Of a stretch of DNA of 64,000 bases, positions 11,925-23,145 are shown in pieces. Below the pieces are notes generated by a model. It searched no databases, was not told the DNA's origin, and was given only the letters and a program-made list of their open reading frames with translations. Position 1 is the first letter of the stretch; each line of letters starts with the position of its first letter. The DNA is taken from assembly GCF_022271435.1 (NCBI RefSeq), contig NZ_JAFIQY010000006.1:1-64000 (forward strand). Direction: 5' to 3'. Source of the stretch: Streptomyces monomycini (lineage in GTDB: Bacteria; Actinomycetota; Actinomycetes; Streptomycetales; Streptomycetaceae). The position numbers and the translations under genes are program-made.

Positions 11925-11942
11925 ATCTACAAGGCTGTAGAT
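11925..11942. promoter_or_regulatory. BlaI-type operator upstream of terB
   Basis: The palindrome ATCTACA-AGGC-TGTAGAT has perfect 7-bp arms around a 4-bp spacer, 66 bases before the terB ATG. It shares TCTACA-N4-TGTAGA with sites at 13212 and 15698. The TACA/TGTA core is that of BlaI/MecI operators, and a BlaI-type gene lies 1.4 kb away. Binding is inferred. Confidence 0.75.
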
Positions 11943-12008
11943 TTTACTTGCGCATGACTCGACCGGCAGCGATGCGCGGCACCACGCGGGAACGACAAGG
12001 AGATCCAC

Positions 12009-12464
12009 ATGGCTCTGTGGGACCGGATCAAGGATTCCGCCCAGACGATGCAGACCCAGCTCGTCGCGAAGAAGAACGAACTGAAGAGCGGCGCCTTCCG
12101 GGACGCGAGCATGGCGATGTGCGCGCTCGTCGCCGCCGCCGACGGGCACGTCGACCCCTCCGAGCGGCAGCGGGTGGCCCAGCTCATCGCCACCAACGAG
12201 GTGCTGCAGAACTTCGACGCCGAGGACCTGCGCCGGCGCTTCGACGCCTACCTGGACAAGCTGACCGCCGACTTCGACTTCGGCAAGGTCGGCCTCATGC
12301 AGGAGATCGGCAAGGTGAAGAAGAAGCCGGTCGAGGCGCGCGCCGTCATCCAGATCGGCATCGTCATCGGCGGCGCCGACGGCGACTTCGACAAGACCGA
12401 GCAGGCCGTCGTGCGCGAGGTCTGCTACGCGCTGGACATTCCGCCGGCCGAGTTCGACCTCTGA
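12009..12464 (+). CDS. TerB-family tellurite-resistance/stress protein
   Basis: The 151-aa cytosolic protein is nearly all helical and carries the TerB-type paired acidic motifs, ADGHVDPSERQRVAQLI and GADGDFDKTEQAVV. TerB proteins are linked to Ter stress systems and may bind metal and the membrane; the biochemical role is unsettled. ATG 12009 follows AAGGAG at a normal distance. The gene stands alone between a BlaI-type operator and a large terminator. It is convergent with the terD gene. The shared operator suggests it is induced together with terD. Confidence 0.9.
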   Translation: MALWDRIKDSAQTMQTQLVAKKNELKSGAFRDASMAMCALVAAADGHVDPSERQRVAQLIATNEVLQNFDAEDLRRRFDAYLDKLTADFDFGKVGLMQEIGKVKKKPVEARAVIQIGIVIGGADGDFDKTEQAVVREVCYALDIPPAEFDL

Positions 12465-12514
12465 CCGGAGCGCGCCACTCGGGCGCGTCACAGGGCGCGC
12501 CGCACGAACGCGCC

Positions 12515-12562
12515 GTACGGCGGCGGGCCCGCGGCACACATGCCGCGGGCCCGCCGTCGTAC
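12515..12562. terminator. bidirectional 22-bp hairpin terminator between terB and terD
   Basis: A 22-bp stem with a single G-U pair surrounds a CACA loop (core CGGCGGGCCCGCGGCA and its complement). It sits between the convergent terB (ends 12464) and terD (ends 12583) genes and should stop both transcripts. Confidence 0.9.
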
Positions 12563-12582
12563 CGCTCGCCTCCGGACGCGGG

Positions 12583-13158
12583 TCAGACGTTGACGCCGAA
12601 GTCCGCCGCGATGCCGGCCAGGCCGGACGCGTAGCCCTGGCCGACCGCGCGGAACTTCCACTCCGTGCCGTGCCGGTACAGCTCGCCGAAGACCATGGCG
12701 GTCTCGGTGGAGGCGTCCTCGGTCAGGTCGTAGCGGGCCAGCTCGTTGCCGTCGGCCTGGTTGACGACGCGGATGAACGCGTTGCGGACCTGGCCGAAGC
12801 TCTGGCCGCGGCTCTGCGCGTCGTGGATGGACACCGGGAAGACGATCTTGGAGACCTCGGCGGGCACGCCCGCCAGGTTCACGTTGACCGACTCGTCGTC
12901 GCCCTCGCCCTCACCGGTGAGGTTGTCGCCGGTGTGCTGCACCGAGCCGTCCGGGCTGGTGAGGTTGTTGTAGAAGACGAAGTGCCGGTCCGAGACGACC
13001 TTGCCCGACTCGTTGCACAGCAGGGCGCTCGCGTCCAGGTCGTAGTCGGCGCCGGTGGTCGTACGGACGTCCCAGCCGAGGCCCACCGTCACGGCGGTCA
13101 GACCGGGCGCCTCCTTCGACAGCGAGACGTTGCCGCCCTTGGCCAGCGAGACTCCCAT
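12583..13158 (-). CDS. TerD-family calcium-binding stress protein
   Basis: The 191-aa cytosolic protein starts [20 protein letters not shown], the standard TerD N-terminus, at ATG 13158 with GGGAGGA upstream. The beta-sandwich fold motifs YDLDASALL and the Ca-binding loop [18 protein letters not shown] are present, as is the C-terminal [21 protein letters not shown]. TerD proteins bind calcium and act in tellurite and general stress responses; in Streptomyces they also affect development. It is divergent from the BlaI gene. A palindromic operator lies 53 bases upstream of its start. The protein is full length. Confidence 0.95.
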
Positions 13159-13211
13159 GGATGTTCCTCCCGGGTCGGGATGCGGCCCGCCGTGTGCGGC
13201 GGGCCACAAAA

Positions 13212-13227
13212 TCTACAGTGCTGTAGA
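13212..13227. promoter_or_regulatory. BlaI-type operator between terD and the BlaI gene
   Basis: TCTACAG-TG-CTGTAGA is a perfect palindrome (TCTACA-N4-TGTAGA form). It lies 53 bases before the terD start on one side and 104 bases before the preferred BlaI start on the other. Position between the divergent genes fits autoregulation plus control of terD. Confidence 0.78.
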
Positions 13228-13331
13228 AGATGACGAACGAGGAGCGGGACGCGTTCCCGGACCGCTCAGTAGGATGCGGCGACGCCCCCGCCGCGCGGGG
13301 CGTGCGGCACGAACGGAAGAAGGCGACGGCG

Positions 13332-13898
13332 ATGAACGGGGACCCCTTCGACGGCCGTACGGGCAGGTTCGGCGGCCATACGGGCGGGCCCGGCAGCCGT
13401 ACAGACGGACCGGACGGCCATCCGGGCGCACCCGGCGACCATCCCGGCGGATTCGACAGCCACCCGGGCGGCCGCGACCGTGCGCGCCGCCGGGGCCAGG
13501 GCGAGCTGGAGGCCCAGGTGCTCGCCGCGCTGCACCAGGCGCCCGGCCCGGCCACCGCCGCCTGGGTGCAGGACCACCTCGGTGACGACCTCGCGTACAC
13601 GACGGTGATGACGATCCTGTCCCGCCTGCACGCCAAGAAGGCCGTCACCCGCGAACGCGTCGGCCGCTCCTACGTGTGGACCCCGGCCGCCGACGAGGCC
13701 GGGCTCGCCGCGCTGCGGATGCGCCGCGTCCTGGACAGCGAGTCCGACCGGGACGCCGTCCTGGCCAGCTTCGTCTCGGCGCTCTCCGCCCAGGACGAAC
13801 AGCTGCTGCGCACCCTGCTGGAGCGCGCCACCGGCGAAGACCCCGGCCACCCCACCGGTCCCGGCCCCGGTACGGGCCGCCCCCCGCACGGAGACTGA
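13332..13898 (+). CDS. BlaI/MecI/CopY-family transcriptional repressor
   Basis: The 188-aa repressor has a typical penicillinase-repressor core at about residues 58-165: QGELEAQVLAALHQAPGPAT, a winged helix with YTTVMTILSRLHAKKAVTRERVGRSYVWTP (split AYTTVMTILSRLHAKK / GRSYVWTP), and helical dimerisation residues including DAVLASFVSAL. In the family, a membrane metalloprotease inactivates it and derepresses target genes. Before the core lies an odd Gly/His/Pro-rich repeat (about residues 5-50) absent from ordinary 120-130-aa BlaI proteins. I chose ATG 13332 because GAAGAAGG precedes it; ATG 13230 directly abuts the operator and has no ribosome site. It is seven bases from the M56 gene. Confidence 0.88.
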   Translation: MNGDPFDGRTGRFGGHTGGPGSRTDGPDGHPGAPGDHPGGFDSHPGGRDRARRRGQGELEAQVLAALHQAPGPATAAWVQDHLGDDLAYTTVMTILSRLHAKKAVTRERVGRSYVWTPAADEAGLAALRMRRVLDSESDRDAVLASFVSALSAQDEQLLRTLLERATGEDPGHPTGPGPGTGRPPHGD

Positions 13899-13905
13899 CT
13901 GACCC

Positions 13906-14871
13906 ATGGGCGTGTTCGTCTTCCTCCCGCTCGTCCTGCCGCTGACCGCGCTGCCGATCGCCCGCCTCGCCGGCCAGCATCTGCACCCGCGCAGCACCAC
14001 CCGCCTGCTGACCGCCCTGTCCGTCGTCCTCGGTGTGTGCAGCACGCTGTGCCTGGGGCTGCTGATGGTGGTGGGCACCGCCCAGCTCCCCGGCAACCCG
14101 CTGCCCGACGGCTGGTCCGACCCGGAGGTGCGCGCGGCGGTGCCGTTCGCCGAGGTGGCCGGGGCGGCGGCGATCGCCGCGCTCGCCGCCGTCCTGACGG
14201 CCGGTGGCGCCGAGCTGCGCCGCCACTACCGCGTCCGCTCCCGTACGCACCGCGCGCTGGACGGCCTGCCGCCCGCCACGGAACTGGCGGTGCTGCCCGA
14301 CGACTCCCCGTACGCCTACGCCGTACCCGGACTGCCCGCCCGCCCCGGCAGGCCCGCACGGCCGGGCCGGATCGCGGTCTCCCGCGGCATGCTGCGCAGC
14401 CTGGACAGTGACGAGCGCCGCGCGCTGCTCGCCCACGAGCGCGCCCACCTGACGGAGCGCCACCACCGCTTCCAGCTCGCCGTACGGCTGGCGGGCTGCG
14501 CGAACCCGCTGCTGCGGCCGCTGCGTACGGCGGTCGCCTTCAGCGCCGAGCGCTGGGCCGACGAGGAGGCGGCGCGGACCGTCGGCGACCGGCGGCTGAC
14601 CGCGCGGGCCGTCGGCAAGGCCGCCCTCGTCTCCCGGCCCACTCCCGGGCCCGTACTGGCGGGTTTCGCCACCCCGGAGCCGGGTCCCGTCCCGCGCCGG
14701 GTGGCGGCACTCCTGGGCCCCGTACCCCCGGCCCGGAGCTGGCCGCCGGCCCTCACTCCGGCCGGCCTGGCCGCCCTGATCGCCGCCGCGGGCACCGCCG
14801 CTTCGGCACTCTCCGCACTGAACGCGGCGGTGGCCCTCTTCCTCGTTCTCAAGGCCGCCACACCGCTCTGA
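13906..14871 (+). CDS. M56-family membrane metallopeptidase (BlaR1/MecR1-like)
   Basis: The 321-aa integral membrane zinc peptidase has N-terminal hydrophobic helices (VFVFLPLVLPLTALPIA, ALSVVLGVCSTLCLGLLMVV, ALAAVLTAGG). The cytosolic protease domain carries HERAH (H177-E178-x-x-H181) followed by the downstream helix with AERWADEEAAR, which supplies the third metal ligand. A final hydrophobic helix lies near residues 285-318. It has no C-terminal penicillin-binding domain, so it is a short M56 rather than full BlaR1. ATG 13906 is seven bases after the BlaI stop, so the two form an operon. The protease is expected to act on that repressor. Confidence 0.9.
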   Translation: MGVFVFLPLVLPLTALPIARLAGQHLHPRSTTRLLTALSVVLGVCSTLCLGLLMVVGTAQLPGNPLPDGWSDPEVRAAVPFAEVAGAAAIAALAAVLTAGGAELRRHYRVRSRTHRALDGLPPATELAVLPDDSPYAYAVPGLPARPGRPARPGRIAVSRGMLRSLDSDERRALLAHERAHLTERHHRFQLAVRLAGCANPLLRPLRTAVAFSAERWADEEAARTVGDRRLTARAVGKAALVSRPTPGPVLAGFATPEPGPVPRRVAALLGPVPPARSWPPALTPAGLAALIAAAGTAASALSALNAAVALFLVLKAATPL

Positions 14872-14938
14872 ACAGGGGCGCGGCAATACGTCGGGGCGCG
14901 CCCGGACGTGGCGACCGGTCGCTCCGTACGATGCGGCG

Positions 14939-15658
14939 ATGACGAGCGTGAAGGAAGACAGCACCGCCGCCGGCCGGATCGGGGGCCCTGCGGCCCCCAA
15001 GGTGTCCGCCCTCGGCCGCGTCATCGCGGCAGCCGTCCCGATCCTCGTGATGCCGGGGGTGGTGGCCTGCGGCACCACGGCGACGGCTCCCGCGAAGCCC
15101 GTCGAGGCGGCCCCCGAGAATGCGTTCCCCGAGGCAGCCCCCGAGGAGGTGGCCGAACAGGTCGTCAGCGCGTCCGAGAACGCCTACCGGGCCCTGGGGC
15201 TGCAGCGCACCATACCGAGGAGCGAACACTCCCGTCCGCCCGGTGCACGCACGGTGAACACACTTTACTCCGGCCCCTGCTACCGGCCCGGCGAGGGCAG
15301 CCTCCACGACCGGCCCGTGGGCGGGGCCTACCAGATCAGCCACATCTGGGCGCTGGACCGGGTGCCGTCGAGTACGGTCCGGCCCGCGTTGGACCGGCTG
15401 CGGGACCATCTGAAGAGCACCGGCTGGCGCATCACGTCGTACGCGAAGCCCTACGACGACACTTGGGAGATGAACGCGGTGCGTGATGACGCCGCCTCGG
15501 CCGGGGGTGCCCGACACCACCACGTCTTCTGGTACGGCGACCGTCAGCGCCTGGAGGGCGAGACGTCCTCTTCGTGCACACACGCCCCTTTGTGGAAGGA
15601 AAGTGACGGCCAGCCGGGCGAGCATCTGACCGCACCGACCACCTTCCCCCGAGCCTGA
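14939..15658 (+). CDS. putative secreted lipoprotein, unknown function
   Basis: The 239-aa product has an N-terminal hydrophobic export segment (VIAAAVPILVMPGVVAC) ending in a plausible lipobox cysteine, VVAC. An Ala/Glu/Pro-rich spacer follows. The C-terminal part has two cysteine-bearing patches (SGPCYRPGEG and SSSCTHAPLW) that could form a disulfide. A middle section resembles small-molecule or peptide-binding lipoproteins only in general composition. The ATG at 14939 gives an 18-residue polar lead before the hydrophobic helix; a later start is possible. It lies between the M56 gene and the third BlaI-type operator, 67 bases after the M56 stop. Function unknown. Confidence 0.7.
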   Translation: MTSVKEDSTAAGRIGGPAAPKVSALGRVIAAAVPILVMPGVVACGTTATAPAKPVEAAPENAFPEAAPEEVAEQVVSASENAYRALGLQRTIPRSEHSRPPGARTVNTLYSGPCYRPGEGSLHDRPVGGAYQISHIWALDRVPSSTVRPALDRLRDHLKSTGWRITSYAKPYDDTWEMNAVRDDAASAGGARHHHVFWYGDRQRLEGETSSSCTHAPLWKESDGQPGEHLTAPTTFPRA

Positions 15659-15697
15659 CCCACCCCACCCTCTGTGACCTGCCCCACACCCGCTCGC

Positions 15698-15727
15698 TTC
15701 TACAGCCCTGTAGAACTGGGCTGTAGA
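15698..15727. promoter_or_regulatory. BlaI-type operator plus half site upstream of the 84-aa/LCP genes
   Basis: TTCTACAG-CC-CTGTAGAA (15698-15715) has perfect 8-bp arms and is the strongest of the three sites. A second half site, CTGTAGA, follows at 15721-15727. The palindrome ends 53 bases before the ATG at 15769, the same distance as at terD. Confidence 0.78.
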
Positions 15728-15768
15728 GTGCGCCGAAACGTGCGCAACGGACGTGGCCGGAGGGGGAG

Positions 15769-16023
15769 ATGACGACGAGGTCCGGGCCCCCGCCGGGAGG
15801 CGGCCCTCCTCCGGAGGCGGAGGTGCACTGGGTCTACCAGCCGGTGGAGCTGCAACACCCCGACGGCGGATGGGAATTGGGCCGCATCACCGCCTGGTGG
15901 CGGGACGGGGCAGGCGAACTGTGGTGCAGGTTGCGTACGATGCGCGGCAGCGGCGGCAGTTGCCCGCAGTGGTTTCCGTACGACCCCGACCGGATTCTCG
16001 TTCTGCCGAGCGCGGGCATCTGA
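15769..16023 (+). CDS. 84-aa protein of unknown function
   Basis: ATG 15769 has a strong GGAGGGGGAG ribosome site. The small soluble protein has a Pro/Gly-rich start, then a compact tryptophan-rich core (VHWVYQPVELQHPDGGWELG, AWWRDGAGELWCRLRTM, CPQWFPYDPDRILVLP) that could be one small beta domain. There is no signal peptide or membrane segment. It directly follows the BlaI-type operator and precedes the LCP gene by 22 bases, so the pair is probably co-transcribed. I do not recognise the family. Confidence 0.75.
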   Translation: MTTRSGPPPGGGPPPEAEVHWVYQPVELQHPDGGWELGRITAWWRDGAGELWCRLRTMRGSGGSCPQWFPYDPDRILVLPSAGI

Positions 16024-16045
16024 CGCACCAGAAGGACCATAGAGC

Positions 16046-17717: not shown

Positions 17718-20700
17718 TCAGCTCTTCTCCTCCAGGTCGCCCTCGGTCTCCAGGAACGCCTCCCGGAGCGCCGTCAGCGTCTCCTTGTCCGGCTCGGCCC
17801 ACATGCCGCGCGACTCCGCCTCCAGAAGGCGTTCCGCGATGCCGTGCAGGGCCCAGGGGTTGGCCTCCTGGAGGAACGCGCGGTTCTCCGGGTCCAGGAC
17901 GTACGTCTGGGCGAGCTTGTCGTACATCCAGTCGGCGACGACGCCGGTCGTGGCGTCATATCCGAACAGGTAGTCGACGGTCGCGGCGAGTTCGAAGGCG
18001 CCCTTGTAGCCGTGGCGGCGCATCGCCTCGATCCAGCGCGGGTTGACCACGCGGGCACGGAAGACCCGGGAGGTCTCCTCGACCAGCGTGCGGGTGCGCA
18101 CCGTTTCCGGGCGCGTCGAGTCGCCGATGTACGCCTCGGGCGCGGTGCCCTTGAGCGCGCGCACGGTCGCGACCATGCCGCCGTGGTACTGGAAGTAGTC
18201 GTCCGAGTCGGCGATGTCGTGCTCTCGGGTGTCGGTGTTCTTCGCCGCCACCGCGATCCGCTTGTACGCGGTCTCCATCTCCTCGCGCGCGGGGCAGCCC
18301 TCCAGGCCGCGCCCGTAGGCGTATCCGCCCCACACCGTGTAGACCTCGGCGAGGTCGGCGTCGGTGCGCCAGTCGCGGGAGTCGATGAGCTGGAGCAGGC
18401 CCGCGCCGTACGTGCCAGGGCGGGAGCCGAAGATGCGGGTGGTGGCGCGGCGCTCGTCGCCGTGCGCGGCCAGGTCGGCCTGGGCGTGCGCGCGCACGTA
18501 GTTGACGTCTGCGGGCTCGTCCAAGGACGCGGCGAGCCGTACGGCGTCGTCCAGCAGGCCGATGACGTGCGGGAACGCGTCACGGAAGAAGCCGGAGATC
18601 CGCAGCGTCACATCAACGCGCGGGCGCCCCAGTTCGTCGGCGGGAATCGGCTCCAGGCCGGTCACCCGGCGCGAGGCGTCGTCCCACACGGGCCGGATGC
18701 CGAGCAGGGCGAGCGCTTCGGCCACGTCGTCGCCGGAGGTGCGCATCGCGCTCGTACCCCACAGGGACAGACCCACCGAGGTCGGCCAGTCGCCGTGGTC
18801 GGTGCGGTAGCGCTCCAGGAGGCTGTCGGCGAGCGCCTGGCCGGTCTCCCAGGCCAGCTTGCTGGGAACGGCCTTGGGGTCGACCGAGTAGAAGTTACGG
18901 CCGGTCGGCAGGACGTTGACCAGGCCGCGCAGCGGCGATCCGGACGGGCCCGCCGGGACGAAGCCGCCGGCCAGCGCGTGCACCGCGTGGTCGATCTCGT
19001 CGGTGGTGGCGGCCAGGCGCGGCACGACCTCGCGGGCGGCGAAGGCGAGGATCGCCGCCACCGGCTCGCGCTGGTCGTCCGGCAGCTCGGCGGTGACCCG
19101 CTCGACGGCCGCCAGGTCCCAGTCCGCGTCGTCCATGGCCTGCACCAGGCCGCGGGCCTGCTCCTCGACCGCGTCGGCGGTCGTGCGGGTCGCGGCCGAC
19201 TCGTCCAGGCCCAGCGCCTCGCGCAGGCCCGGCAGCGAGGACGTGCCGCCCCAGATCTGGCGGGCGCGCAGGATGGCGAGTACGAGGTTGACGCGCGCCT
19301 CACCGGCGGGCGCGCCGCCGAGGACGTGCAGTCCGTCGCGGATCTGCGCGTCCTTGACCTCGCACAGCCAGCCGTCGACGTGCAGCAGGAAGTCGTCGAA
19401 GCCCTCGTCGTCCGGGCGCTCCTCCAGGCCGAGGTCGTGGTGGAGCTTGGCGGCCTGGATCAGCGTCCAGATCTGGGCGCGGATGGCGGGCAGCTTGGCC
19501 GGGTCCATGGCGGAGATCGCCGCGTACTCGTCCAGCAGCTGCTCCAGGCGCGCGATGTCGCCGTACGACTCGGCACGGGCCATCGGCGGCACCAGGTGGT
19601 CGACCAGCGTGGCGTGCACCCGGCGCTTGGCCTGGGTGCCCTCGCCCGGGTCGTTGACCAGGAACGGGTAGATCAGCGGCAGGTCGCCGAGGGCCGCGTC
19701 CGGGCCGCAGGCGGCGGACAGGCCGGCGTTCTTGCCGGGCAGCCACTCCAGGTTGCCGTGCTTGCCCAGGTGGACCATGGCGTCGGCGCCGAAGCCGCCG
19801 TCCTCCTGGGAGGCGGCGATCCAGCGGTAGGCGGCCAGGTAGTGGTGCGACGGCGGCAGATCGGGGTCGTGGTAGATCGCGATCGGGTTCTCGCCGAAAC
19901 CGCGCGGCGGCTGGATGAGGATGAGCAGGTTGCCGCGGCGCAGGGCCGCCAGCACGATGTCGCCGTCCGGGTTCTTGCTTCGGTCCACGAACATCTCGCC
20001 GGGCGGCGGGCCCCAGTGCTCCTCGACCTGCTCGCGCAGTTCCTTCGGCAGCGTGCCGTACCAGCGCTTGTAGTCGGCGGCCGGGATACGGACGGGGTTA
20101 CGGGCCAGCTGCTCCTCGGTCAGCCACTCCTGGTCGTGGCCGCCCGCCTCGATCAGCGCGTAGATCAGCTCGTCGCCGACGCCGGACTCCAGGCCGGGCA
20201 CGGGCTCGTCCCCGTAGTCGTAGCCCTCCTTTTGGAGGCGGCGCAGCAGCGCCACCGCACTGGCCGGGGTGTCCAGACCGACCGCGTTGCCGATGCGGGA
20301 GTGCTTGGTCGGGTACGCGGACAGCACCAGCGCCAGGCGCTTGTCGGCGGGCGCGATGTGGCGCAGCCGGGCGTGGCGTACGGCGATGCCGGCGACCCGG
20401 GCGGCGCGCTCGGGGTCGGCGACGTACACCGGCAGGCCGTCCTCGTCGGTCTCCTTGAAGGAGAACGGGACGGTGATCAGCCGGCCGTCGAACTCGGGCA
20501 CCGCGATCTGGCTGGCCGCGTCCAGCGGCGACAGGCCCTCGTCGTTCTCCTCCCAGGCGCTGCGCGGCCCGGTCAGGCACAGGGCCTGGAGGATCGGCAC
20601 GTCCAGCGCGGCCAGCGCGCCCGCGTCCCAGGACTCGTCGTCGCCGCCGGCCGACGCCTCGGCGGGCTTGGTGCCGCCCGCCGCCAGCACGGTCGTCACG

Positions 20701-21389
20701 ATGGCGTCGGCGGCCCGCAGCTCCTCGATCAGCTCCGGCTCGGGTGCCCGCAGCGAGGCGACGAACAGCGGCAGCGGGCGGCCGCCGGCCTCCTCGATCC
20801 GCTCGCACAGCGACTCTATGAAGCCGGTGTTGCCGCTCATGTGGTGGGCGCGGTAGTAGAGCACGGCGACCAGCGGGCCGGTCGCGGCGCCCGTGTCGTC
20901 CGTACGGGCCACGACCTCCGCGCCCGTACGCGCCTCGGCCGCCAGGTGCTTCGAGCGCTCCAGGTGGCCCCAGGAGGGCGCGGCGGCCGGCGGCTCGAAG
21001 CCGTGGCCGGTCAGCAGCACGGTGTCGGACAGGAAGCGGGCGAGCTGCTCCAGGTTGGCGGGGCCGCCGTGCGCCAGGTAGGCGTGCGCCTCGGCCGCGA
21101 TGCCGATGGGGACGGTGGACGCCTCCATGAGCTGCGCGTCCGGCGCCTGTTCACCGGTGAGCACCACGACGGGCCGGGGCTGGCCGGCGGCGAGGAGCTG
21201 GTCCAGGCCCTCCTGCCAGGCGCGCAGGCCGCCGAGGAGACGGACGACGACCAGGTCGGCGCCGTCCAGGAGGGCGGGCAGCTCGGCGAGGTCGAGACGG
21301 GCGGGGTTGGCGAGCCGGTACGGCACGGGACCGGCGGCCGCGCGGGCGCTCAGCAGGTCGGTGTCGGACGTCGACAGCAGCAGGATCAT
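17718..21389 (-). CDS. cobN: cobaltochelatase subunit CobN
   Basis: The 1223-aa protein is the large H2-chelatase subunit of the aerobic cobalamin pathway. It inserts Co2+ into hydrogenobyrinic acid a,c-diamide using ATP, together with CobS/CobT or ChlI/ChlD-like partners not seen here. It starts MILLLSTSDTDLLSARAAAG at ATG 21389, the usual CobN beginning, with GAGGAAGG upstream. Family stretches include YYRAHHMSGNTGFIESL, LVLSAYPTKHSRIGNAVGLD, MVHLGKHGNLEWLPGKNAGL, VGLSLWGTSAMRTSGDD and VWGGYAYGRGLEG. Length is normal. An adenosylcobalamin riboswitch occupies the leader. A start upstream of the riboswitch is excluded by that element. Confidence 0.95.
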   Translation of the reverse strand: MILLLSTSDTDLLSARAAAGPVPYRLANPARLDLAELPALLDGADLVVVRLLGGLRAWQEGLDQLLAAGQPRPVVVLTGEQAPDAQLMEASTVPIGIAAEAHAYLAHGGPANLEQLARFLSDTVLLTGHGFEPPAAAPSWGHLERSKHLAAEARTGAEVVARTDDTGAATGPLVAVLYYRAHHMSGNTGFIESLCERIEEAGGRPLPLFVASLRAPEPELIEELRAADAIVTTVLAAGGTKPAEASAGGDDESWDAGALAALDVPILQALCLTGPRSAWEENDEGLSPLDAASQIAVPEFDGRLITVPFSFKETDEDGLPVYVADPERAARVAGIAVRHARLRHIAPADKRLALVLSAYPTKHSRIGNAVGLDTPASAVALLRRLQKEGYDYGDEPVPGLESGVGDELIYALIEAGGHDQEWLTEEQLARNPVRIPAADYKRWYGTLPKELREQVEEHWGPPPGEMFVDRSKNPDGDIVLAALRRGNLLILIQPPRGFGENPIAIYHDPDLPPSHHYLAAYRWIAASQEDGGFGADAMVHLGKHGNLEWLPGKNAGLSAACGPDAALGDLPLIYPFLVNDPGEGTQAKRRVHATLVDHLVPPMARAESYGDIARLEQLLDEYAAISAMDPAKLPAIRAQIWTLIQAAKLHHDLGLEERPDDEGFDDFLLHVDGWLCEVKDAQIRDGLHVLGGAPAGEARVNLVLAILRARQIWGGTSSLPGLREALGLDESAATRTTADAVEEQARGLVQAMDDADWDLAAVERVTAELPDDQREPVAAILAFAAREVVPRLAATTDEIDHAVHALAGGFVPAGPSGSPLRGLVNVLPTGRNFYSVDPKAVPSKLAWETGQALADSLLERYRTDHGDWPTSVGLSLWGTSAMRTSGDDVAEALALLGIRPVWDDASRRVTGLEPIPADELGRPRVDVTLRISGFFRDAFPHVIGLLDDAVRLAASLDEPADVNYVRAHAQADLAAHGDERRATTRIFGSRPGTYGAGLLQLIDSRDWRTDADLAEVYTVWGGYAYGRGLEGCPAREEMETAYKRIAVAAKNTDTREHDIADSDDYFQYHGGMVATVRALKGTAPEAYIGDSTRPETVRTRTLVEETSRVFRARVVNPRWIEAMRRHGYKGAFELAATVDYLFGYDATTGVVADWMYDKLAQTYVLDPENRAFLQEANPWALHGIAERLLEAESRGMWAEPDKETLTALREAFLETEGDLEEKS

Positions 21390-21429
21390 GGCGGCGTCTG
21401 GCCTTCCTCGGGGTCCGCGCCCCGGGCGG

Positions 21430-21568
21430 TTCACGGACGGCGGGAGTTCCTGGCTCGCCCGGCGGTGGCCGGGCTCACAGTGGCGGGACCGCGCCGGGTT
21501 TCCACCGGGCTTCCTCCCTTGGCGCCGTCGCTGGCGTCCGGTGGGCCAGCTGACCCACCGACCTGCAT
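21430..21568 (-). promoter_or_regulatory. adenosylcobalamin riboswitch in the cobN leader
   Basis: Reading the minus strand 5' to 3', conserved B12-element blocks occur in order: AAGGGAGGAAGCCCGGTGG (ending near 21502), then CGCGGTCCCGCCACTGTGA (to 21474), then the B12-box-like GAGCCAGGAACTCCCGCC (21456-21439). The gap from the last block to the cobN ATG is about 50 bases, long enough for a ribosome-site sequestering arm. The ends given are approximate. High adenosylcobalamin should switch cobN off. Confidence 0.88.
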
Positions 21569-21621
21569 AGTAGAGGCTGCGATCGAACGGCGGGCGGCAG
21601 ACCGTACAGAGCATCGTCGGT

Positions 21622-23145
21622 ATGCTCGCCGCCATGCCGCCCACCCCCGCGATACCCCCGCACCGGGACGAATCCCTCGTACGGGACAGTGGTGCTGCCT
21701 GCGCACCGGACCGTGGAGACGCCGGACAGGCCGACGGGGACGCCGTGCGGGGCCGGGAGGACGCCCGCGTACGCGACCGTGCGGCCGCCCGCGTGCGAGA
21801 CGCGCAGACCGGCGCGGACACCCTCGTTCGGGACCGCGGAGACGCCTGCCCCGGCGCGCTGCGGCTGCACTCCGCCGCCGACGGCTCGCTGGCCCGACTC
21901 CGCCTCCCCGCCGGTCTCCTGACCGCACCTCAGGCACGCGCCCTCGCCGACGCCGCGGACCGCCTCGGCGACGGCCACCTCTCCCTCACCTCCCGCGGCA
22001 ACGCGGAGCTGCGCGGCCTGGGCGACGGCTGCGCCGCACCGCTCGCCGACCTGCTGCGCGCCGCCGGTCTCCTCCCCTCCGACCAGCACGAACGCGTCCG
22101 CAACATCGTCGCCTCCCCGCTCGCGGGCCTGGACGGGCAGGGCGCCGACGGCGGTGCCCCCGTCCAGGAGTGGGCCCGTGAGCTGGACCGCCTGCTGTGC
22201 GCGAGCGACACGGCCCCCGCTCTCTCCGGCCGCTTCCTCTTCGCACTGGACGACGGCCGCGGCGACGTGGCCGCGCTCGGCGGCGATGTGACGTTGGTCG
22301 CAGAACCCGGCGGCACGGCGCTGCTGCGCGTCGGCGACGACTCCGAGGCCCTGCGCCTCCCCGGCAGCGAGGCCCCCCGCGCTGCCCGCACCGCCGCAGA
22401 AGCGTTCCTCTCGGTCGCCCACGAGGCCGGCCACGGCTCCTGGCGCGTCCGGGAACTCCCGCCAGGACACGACGCCGCCGCCGTACGCGCCCTCCTCCGC
22501 ACCCGCCTCCCGCAGCCGTACGAGACGACCGCGGCCCCCGCGCCCACCGCGCCCCGCCCGCCCCGTCCCAGCACCCTCACCACCCCCGACGGCACCCACG
22601 CCGCCCTCTCCCTCCTCGCCCCCCTCGGCCGCCTCACCACCGCCCAGCTGCGACGGCTGGCCGACGTGGCGGCCCAGGACGGCCACGGCGAACTCCGTAT
22701 GACACCCTGGCGCGGCGTGGTCCTGCCCGGCCTCCCCCCCGAGGCGGCCGGCCCCCGGCTGCGCGAACTGGCCACGGCCGGCCTGGTCACCGACCCGGCC
22801 TCCCCCTGGTACGGGCTCGGCGCCTGCACCGGCCTCCCCGGCTGCGCCAAGTCCCTGTCCGACGTACGGGCGGACGCCGTGACCGGCCTCCGTATGGACG
22901 GCACCGGCGGCCCGCACCAGGCCGCCACCGGGCTCCTCCCCGTCCACTGGTCGGGCTGCGCCCGCCGCTGCGGCCACCCGCACGGCGCGTGGGTCGATGT
23001 CGTCGCCACCGGCGACGCCTACGAGGTGTCCGTACGGGGCACCCGGCACGCGGCGCCCGCCACGGCCACCGTCCCCCTGACCGAACCCGGCCGCCTCGCC
23101 GACGCCGTCGCGTCGGCCCGCGCGGCCGGCCGCACCACGCCATGA
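21622..23145 (+). CDS. cobG: precorrin-3B synthase CobG
   Basis: The 507-aa iron-sulfur monooxygenase converts precorrin-3A to precorrin-3B using O2, a marker of the aerobic pathway. It has two nitrite/sulfite-reductase ferredoxin-like halves (LRLPAGLLTAPQARALAD and HLSLTSRGNAELRGL). The 4Fe-4S cysteines are C402 and C408 in CTGLPGC and C446 and C450 in CARRC, the standard C-x5-C...C-x3-C spacing. The first 75 residues are a repetitive Arg/Asp/Ala stretch (RDRAAARVRDA) not needed for the fold. ATG 21622 or 21634 could start it. It is divergent from cobN; its promoter must lie in or next to the riboswitch DNA. Confidence 0.9.
   Translation: MLAAMPPTPAIPPHRDESLVRDSGAACAPDRGDAGQADGDAVRGREDARVRDRAAARVRDAQTGADTLVRDRGDACPGALRLHSAADGSLARLRLPAGLLTAPQARALADAADRLGDGHLSLTSRGNAELRGLGDGCAAPLADLLRAAGLLPSDQHERVRNIVASPLAGLDGQGADGGAPVQEWARELDRLLCASDTAPALSGRFLFALDDGRGDVAALGGDVTLVAEPGGTALLRVGDDSEALRLPGSEAPRAARTAAEAFLSVAHEAGHGSWRVRELPPGHDAAAVRALLRTRLPQPYETTAAPAPTAPRPPRPSTLTTPDGTHAALSLLAPLGRLTTAQLRRLADVAAQDGHGELRMTPWRGVVLPGLPPEAAGPRLRELATAGLVTDPASPWYGLGACTGLPGCAKSLSDVRADAVTGLRMDGTGGPHQAATGLLPVHWSGCARRCGHPHGAWVDVVATGDAYEVSVRGTRHAAPATATVPLTEPGRLADAVASARAAGRTTP

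Follow-up and report, generated by a model that had tools for sequence, protein, structure and literature searches.

The stretch of interest is a 64,000-nucleotide segment of the Streptomyces monomycini genome (assembly GCF_022271435.1, contig NZ_JAFIQY010000006.1, positions 1 to 64,000; hereafter, the window). It contains a gene pair coding for a BlaI-family repressor and an M56-like membrane metalloprotease, lying among genes for the stress proteins TerB and TerD, a small protein (ORF84) and an LCP glycopolymer transferase. A palindrome of one form, TCTACA-N4-TGTAGA, stands before terB, between terD and blaI, and before the ORF84-LCP genes (Table 1). We consider it probable that the BlaI repressor, together with a BlaR1-type protease that lacks a sensor domain, controls a Ter/LCP regulon via this one operator.

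The window carries exactly three exact copies of the palindrome, and no further match when up to two mismatches are allowed. Shuffled versions of the window contain a mean of 0.15 such matches, and none of 100 shuffles reaches three; the bare core, TACA-N4-TGTA, falls in the same three places only. A first-pass annotation of the window had claimed three palindromes of the same form and none elsewhere, which is borne out; of the positions that it gave, one was right and two were off by one (the correct first bases being 11926 and 15699). Extending the search to the whole genome (9,268,133 bases on 96 contigs), as that annotation had suggested, gives 4 exact sites, against 0 for a reversed-pattern control. 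The fourth, outside the window (C45:311237; L001 1501–1516), lies 74 bases upstream of another TerD gene, which is one of two convergent TerD genes. The core occurs eight times in the genome and likewise eight times in the control, and only the 4 exact sites have the TC..GA extension; hence it is the full palindrome, rather than the core, that exceeds chance. The other four genomic cores, lacking the outer bases, were set aside as chance matches. Judged by its exact sites, the regulon of this genome would consist of terB, terD, the additional terD and ORF84-LCP, possibly with the divergent blaI-M56 pair.

Table 1. Operators and genes of the terB–LCP locus. Operator-to-gene distances run from the end of the site to the start codon, counted on the sequence.
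Feature	Position in window	Strand	Remarks
Operator 1, TCTACAAGGCTGTAGA	11926..11941		67 nt upstream of terB (ATG 12009)
terB, 151 aa	12009..12464	+	PF05099, E 1.4e-29
terD, 191 aa	12583..13158	-	PF02342, E 2e-87; start chosen at 13158
Operator 2, TCTACAGTGCTGTAGA	13212..13227		divergent terD/blaI interval; 53 nt to terD start 13158 (minus strand)
blaI, BlaI/MecI-type winged-helix repressor, 188 aa from likely ATG	13332..13898	+	PF03965
M56-like membrane metalloprotease, 321 aa	13906..14871	+	conserved metal ligands; predicted BlaR1-like fold
ORF239, lipoprotein-like	14939..15658	+	VVACG near N-terminus (by eye)
Operator 3, TCTACAGCCCTGTAGA	15699..15714		54 nt upstream of ORF84 (ATG 15769)
TAGAGT, possible -10 of ORF84 promoter	15724..15729		10 bases after operator 3
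ORF84, small protein, 84 aa	15769..16023	+	predicted all-beta; 14 orthologues in named loci
LCP glycopolymer transferase, 516 aa	16046..17596	+	PF03816, E 2.3e-45; PF13399 (LytR_C)

The same arrangement recurs around related blaI genes, that of S. rimosus (L067) among them. Among the named BlaI loci (the best 80 of at least 546 confirmed), and counting sites with at most one mismatch while leaving out truncated or low-scoring gene pieces, the palindrome stands upstream of terD in 37/37 cases, terB in 37/41 and ORF84 in 14/14. It lies before blaI or its divergent neighbor in 48 of the 80 loci, before a second type of terD in 3/8, and before the M56-like gene, which served as a control, in 0/66. 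Across the 1.46 Mb of these loci the exact palindrome occurs 106 times and the reversed pattern never, and the full palindrome is found at no other spacing from 0 to 10. The bare TACA/TGTA core occurs 118 times at N4, and 1, 7, 2 and 3 times at N3, N5, N6 and N9, respectively. Six other palindromes gave 0 exact matches and 0–2 with one mismatch. All 14 ORF84 promoters have a TANNNT hexamer starting 10 bases past the operator, which suggests that a bound repressor would cover the -35 region. A reading of the right operator arm at terB/terD as part of a -10 element (TAGATT) varies between clades and is not claimed.

The window's BlaI is a clear member of its family. The Penicillinase_R profile (PF03965) matches at E 1.4e-24 (87.1 bits against a cut-off of 22.6) over residues 57–164, near full length at profile positions 2–114 of 115. 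The open frame starts at 13230; by reading, its likely start is the ATG at 13332. A TACA/TGTA palindrome, as expected of BlaI/MecI repressors, is present at its own and its target promoters, and in the full form at N4 only. Gly, His and Asp abound in the roughly 50 N-terminal residues (window 13332–13480), a region that shows little conservation across 16 orthologues. The genome search turned up one other BlaI-family gene (C9:112231), which has no such operator upstream. The first-pass names TerB, TerD, BlaI and LCP all hold (PF05099, PF02342, PF03965, and PF03816 with LytR_C); for LCP, the LytR_cpsA_psr domain scores 154.9 bits against a cut-off of 24.6.

The label "M56" fared less simply. 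In Pfam the protein matches M48 (E 2.6e-12, 47.4 bits), and M56 stays below its cut-off (E 0.01, 15.5 bits against 31); it is the predicted fold that supports the label. In a structure model built from 40 orthologues (mean pLDDT 80), Staphylococcus aureus BlaR1 is the top Foldseek match (E 0.053, probability 1.00). With VIA-align, BlaR1 chains occupy the four top rows, the best being 8ext_A (rmsd 3.8, 210 aligned) at a Z of 11.3, which is below the value of about 13 advised for helical models, a lower Z possibly reflecting arrangement only; other metalloproteases follow at Z 7.1–8.2. With that caution, the model predicts a BlaR1-type membrane metalloprotease fold with an HEXXH...E motif. No penicillin-binding sensor domain is present, as first noted from the sequence: the chain ends at residue 321, no penicillin-binding family was found in it, and the best BlaR1 match extends no further than chain residue 291 of 8ext_A.

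That Pfam sees M48 rather than M56, and that proteolysis is itself a prediction, would also suit a scheme in which BlaI binds the site and is released by a ligand or another protease, with the M56-like protein having no part as its antagonist. We think this unlikely: an M56-like gene lies within 3.5 kb of 115 of the 123 close BlaIs (defined below), H177, E178, H181 and E215 of its product are invariant among 40 orthologues, a query of the genome with that product at E up to 0.01 returns it as the only match, and BlaR1 is the best structural match. Inactivation of the repressor by the M56-like protease thus remains the preferred prediction.

The operator and the repressor also travel together across the genus, in the comparison with related Streptomyces that the first-pass annotation had suggested. 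Of 101 Streptomyces genomes searched, 64 have the exact site, with 177 copies between them; the control gave 3 matches. BlaI genes were called "close" by a cut-off at a gap in scores between E 1.5e-39 and 7.8e-34, placed after the gap had been seen. An exact site is present in 57/67 genomes with a close BlaI and in 7/34 without (Fisher p 2.6e-10, which overstates independence because the genomes are related). In the seven site-bearing genomes that lack a close BlaI, all 11 exact sites were inspected: (i) four are beside a more distant BlaI (G018, G038, G051 and G080), one of them common to a DedA gene, (ii) four are before DedA, PAP2 or UppP genes, (iii) two are before DUF347 genes, and (iv) one is unassigned. 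None is at terB or terD. The sequences thus support the first-pass proposal of an operator common to terB, terD and ORF84-LCP, with no ter-gene site where the BlaI orthologue is lacking (0/11).

TerD itself is present in all 27 genomes searched that have neither a close BlaI nor an exact site. Thirty terD loci from these genomes (which have many TerD genes) show no site within one mismatch, the best being a single case with two mismatches; since lack of an exact site was a condition for picking these genomes, the control is informative only as to sites with one mismatch. In a sample of 148 genomes from the class, a match is found in 17, made up of 8/11 Streptomyces and 9/137 genomes from outside the genus (control, 3/148). 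Five of the nine non-Streptomyces genomes belong to one family (f18), and some of these matches may be real. One of the nine has its match next to a BlaI (L199).

For the LCP gene the possibility arises that the link is a local accident, the gene merely lying near the ter/blaI cluster. ORF84 was indeed found beside blaI in 14 of the 80 named loci, namely where the BlaI is most similar to that of the window. An unselected sample argues otherwise: an orthologue of the window's LCP (E below 1e-150) is present in 10/51 genomes, and in 9 of these 10 it has a site when one mismatch is allowed; at 20 paralogous LCP loci no site lies within 900 bases (these counts leave out a second LCP match in G028, C805). 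In G021 the LCP gene and the close blaI are on different contigs, the LCP gene being more than 10 kb from the end of its own. These observations indicate that the link is no accident of neighborhood, an explanation to which we give very little credence. The exception among the 10 is G013, a genome without a close BlaI; the best match there, roughly at the usual site position, differs at three bases. Two sites near LCP were seen in G028 (L164 1501 and 1580).

Which further genes carry the operator was surveyed with 160 distinct exact sites among those listed, 151 of them in 57 Streptomyces genomes. Targets were named using a codon-composition filter and an open reading frame start within 260 bases, each family from one representative; 16 of the 160 sites were left unassigned, and some true targets were missed, including the window's own ORF84 site. 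Of the sites surveyed, 75 precede a ter gene and 40 a blaI gene. Other recurrent targets, with the number of genomes, are TatA-like (12), Spo0M (10), acyltransferase (9), a small unknown protein (8), DedA (5), CNNM (4), LCP (4), UppP (3) and PAP2 (3 and 2). Two abutting operators stand before terB in G069 (L219 4615 and 4631).

Several of these targets lie beside a second set of BlaI genes. BlaI genes of middle similarity have the site in 8/9 cases and DedA and M56-like neighbors in 6/9, often with PAP2 or UppP; two of the nine (L036 and L118) are cut or disrupted fragments of close-type genes with ter neighbors. Further BlaIs lie beside PAP2 genes in G038 and G064. At L205, L217, L222, L234, L294, L295 and L328 the operator is beside DedA, PAP2 or UppP, mostly with an adjoining BlaI paralogue, and at L205, L222 and L234 with an M56-like gene too. 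Sites of the middle BlaIs beside DedA, PAP2 or UppP indicate that the operator is that of a subgroup of BlaI repressors divided into two or more branches, of which both the Ter branch and this one are, by their gene content, rich in envelope functions.

The concentration of sites at ter genes (75 of the 151 Streptomyces sites, about half) raises another explanation: the palindrome could be the operator of a separate regulator dedicated to ter, with blaI-M56 only a neighbor or a target. The 40 of 123 close blaI genes that have no site within 300 bases upstream fit this explanation as well. Four lines of evidence make it improbable. Firstly, genomes without a close BlaI do have TerD, yet their 11 exact sites are at no ter gene. 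Secondly, BlaI paralogues without a ter neighbor carry the same site beside DedA, PAP2 or UppP. Thirdly, a far BlaI relative outside Streptomyces (L199, in G112) has an exact site upstream. Fourthly, TACA/TGTA arms are reported for BlaI, MecI and CopY (PMC7253601).

Control by the BlaI repressor and its protease is therefore retained as the more probable reading, against which the following points weigh, besides the relatedness of the genomes, the placing of the cut-off and the Z score given above. Ten of the 67 genomes with a close BlaI have no exact site; four of these have a one-mismatch site at terB/terD beside blaI, and six have none near blaI. Thirteen of the 80 named loci have no site in the stretch covered, which, with the 40 close blaI genes just mentioned, indicates that autoregulation is not universal. 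In G032 the LCP site is present (one mismatch), yet no close BlaI was found. Lastly, the proposal of an envelope signal draws solely on gene content.

We propose the following sequence of events. The BlaI-family repressor would bind TCTACA-N4-TGTAGA as a dimer and repress terB, both site-bearing terD genes and ORF84-LCP; through operator 2 it may, in addition, govern the expression of blaI-M56. The BlaR1-type membrane protease, which has no extracellular sensor domain, would become active when the membrane or the cell-wall lipid cycle changes, and would then inactivate BlaI, switching the regulon on. Since the protease has no sensor domain, and since the wider set includes lipid-carrier and cell-wall genes, the membrane or the lipid II cycle is favored over beta-lactams as the source of the signal. 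More tentatively, and with somewhat less than even confidence, we suggest a two-branch envelope-stress system in which sensorless BlaR1-type proteases and BlaI repressors use one common operator. One branch would take in Ter, LCP, TatA-like, Spo0M and acyltransferase genes and the other the lipid-carrier recycling genes DedA, PAP2 and UppP; the proteases would read the state of the membrane or lipid carrier directly, Ter would be an envelope-defense arm, and the branches could cross-talk via the operator. This suggestion is strengthened because sites in genomes without the first-branch BlaI stand at second-branch genes and at no ter gene.

The nearest known systems are BlaI-BlaR1 and MecI-MecR1 of Staphylococcus, with which the locus shares a PF03965 repressor beside a protease best matching BlaR1, and a TACA/TGTA palindrome. 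There are three differences: (i) the Streptomyces protease lacks the penicillin-binding sensor domain, (ii) the half-sites of the operator are 4 apart, not 2 apart as in TACANNTGTA, an older operator said, in PMC7253601, to be bound by many such repressors, and (iii) the targets are ter and LCP genes and, in the genus, also TatA-like, Spo0M and acyltransferase genes. The system would work like BlaI-BlaR1, but the protease does not qualify as a BlaR1 receptor, because the sensor domain is absent and the Pfam M56 score is below cut-off.

By sequence, the only solved relative of the window's BlaI within E 0.001 is 2g9w (E 7.2e-11), the BlaI Rv1846c of Mycobacterium tuberculosis, which likewise has a multi-gene regulon; as given in PMC9045315, that regulon comprises drug transport, detoxification, ATP synthesis, blaI and blaC, with neither ter nor LCP genes. 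This likeness is drawn from protein sequence and regulon, not from the operator. The copper repressors CopY/CopR are related and also have TACA/TGTA arms, at spacing N2 rather than N4. The CopY/TcrY equivalog TIGR02698 scores 23.7 bits (E 4.4e-05) on the window's BlaI against a threshold of 121.95, and, unlike those repressors, this BlaI lacks a CXC metal motif throughout its open frame and, over the 188 residues from the likely start on, contains no cysteine at all. TerB and TerD of the window belong to the same families as the Ter stress proteins. No BlaI/M56-controlled ter or LCP regulon is described in the titles and abstract openings of the open-license papers searched.

The remaining features of the locus are as follows. 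The terD start at 13158 was chosen for the conserved MGVSLAKG and a GGAGG shortly upstream. ORF239 matched no Pfam or NCBIfam family and is poorly conserved, being detected in 1 of the 80 named loci. The ORF84 model has five strands (mean pLDDT 80.6), and a structure search with it had no convincing hit (best E 0.15). Positions 15673–15688, shortly before the ORF84 operator, hold a TGTGA-N6-CCACA element, which we take to resemble a CRP site; a similar TGTGA..CACA run is present in 12 of the 14 ORF84 promoters, at varying distance. A CobN-type chelatase gene (PF02514) adjoins the LCP gene on the minus strand (17718–21821); a 1494-aa plus-strand frame over that region matches no Pfam family and is probably spurious.

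The locus bears on two questions, namely the role of Ter proteins in Gram-positive bacteria and the signal sensed by sensorless BlaR1-type proteases. It offers a compact predicted regulon with a defined operator, only one candidate protease genome-wide, and a probable target that acts on the cell wall, which makes both questions directly testable. The operator, which related species also carry, provides a rule for locating the regulon in other Streptomyces. The switch itself would be a relative of the penicillin-resistance switch from which the penicillin sensor is absent.

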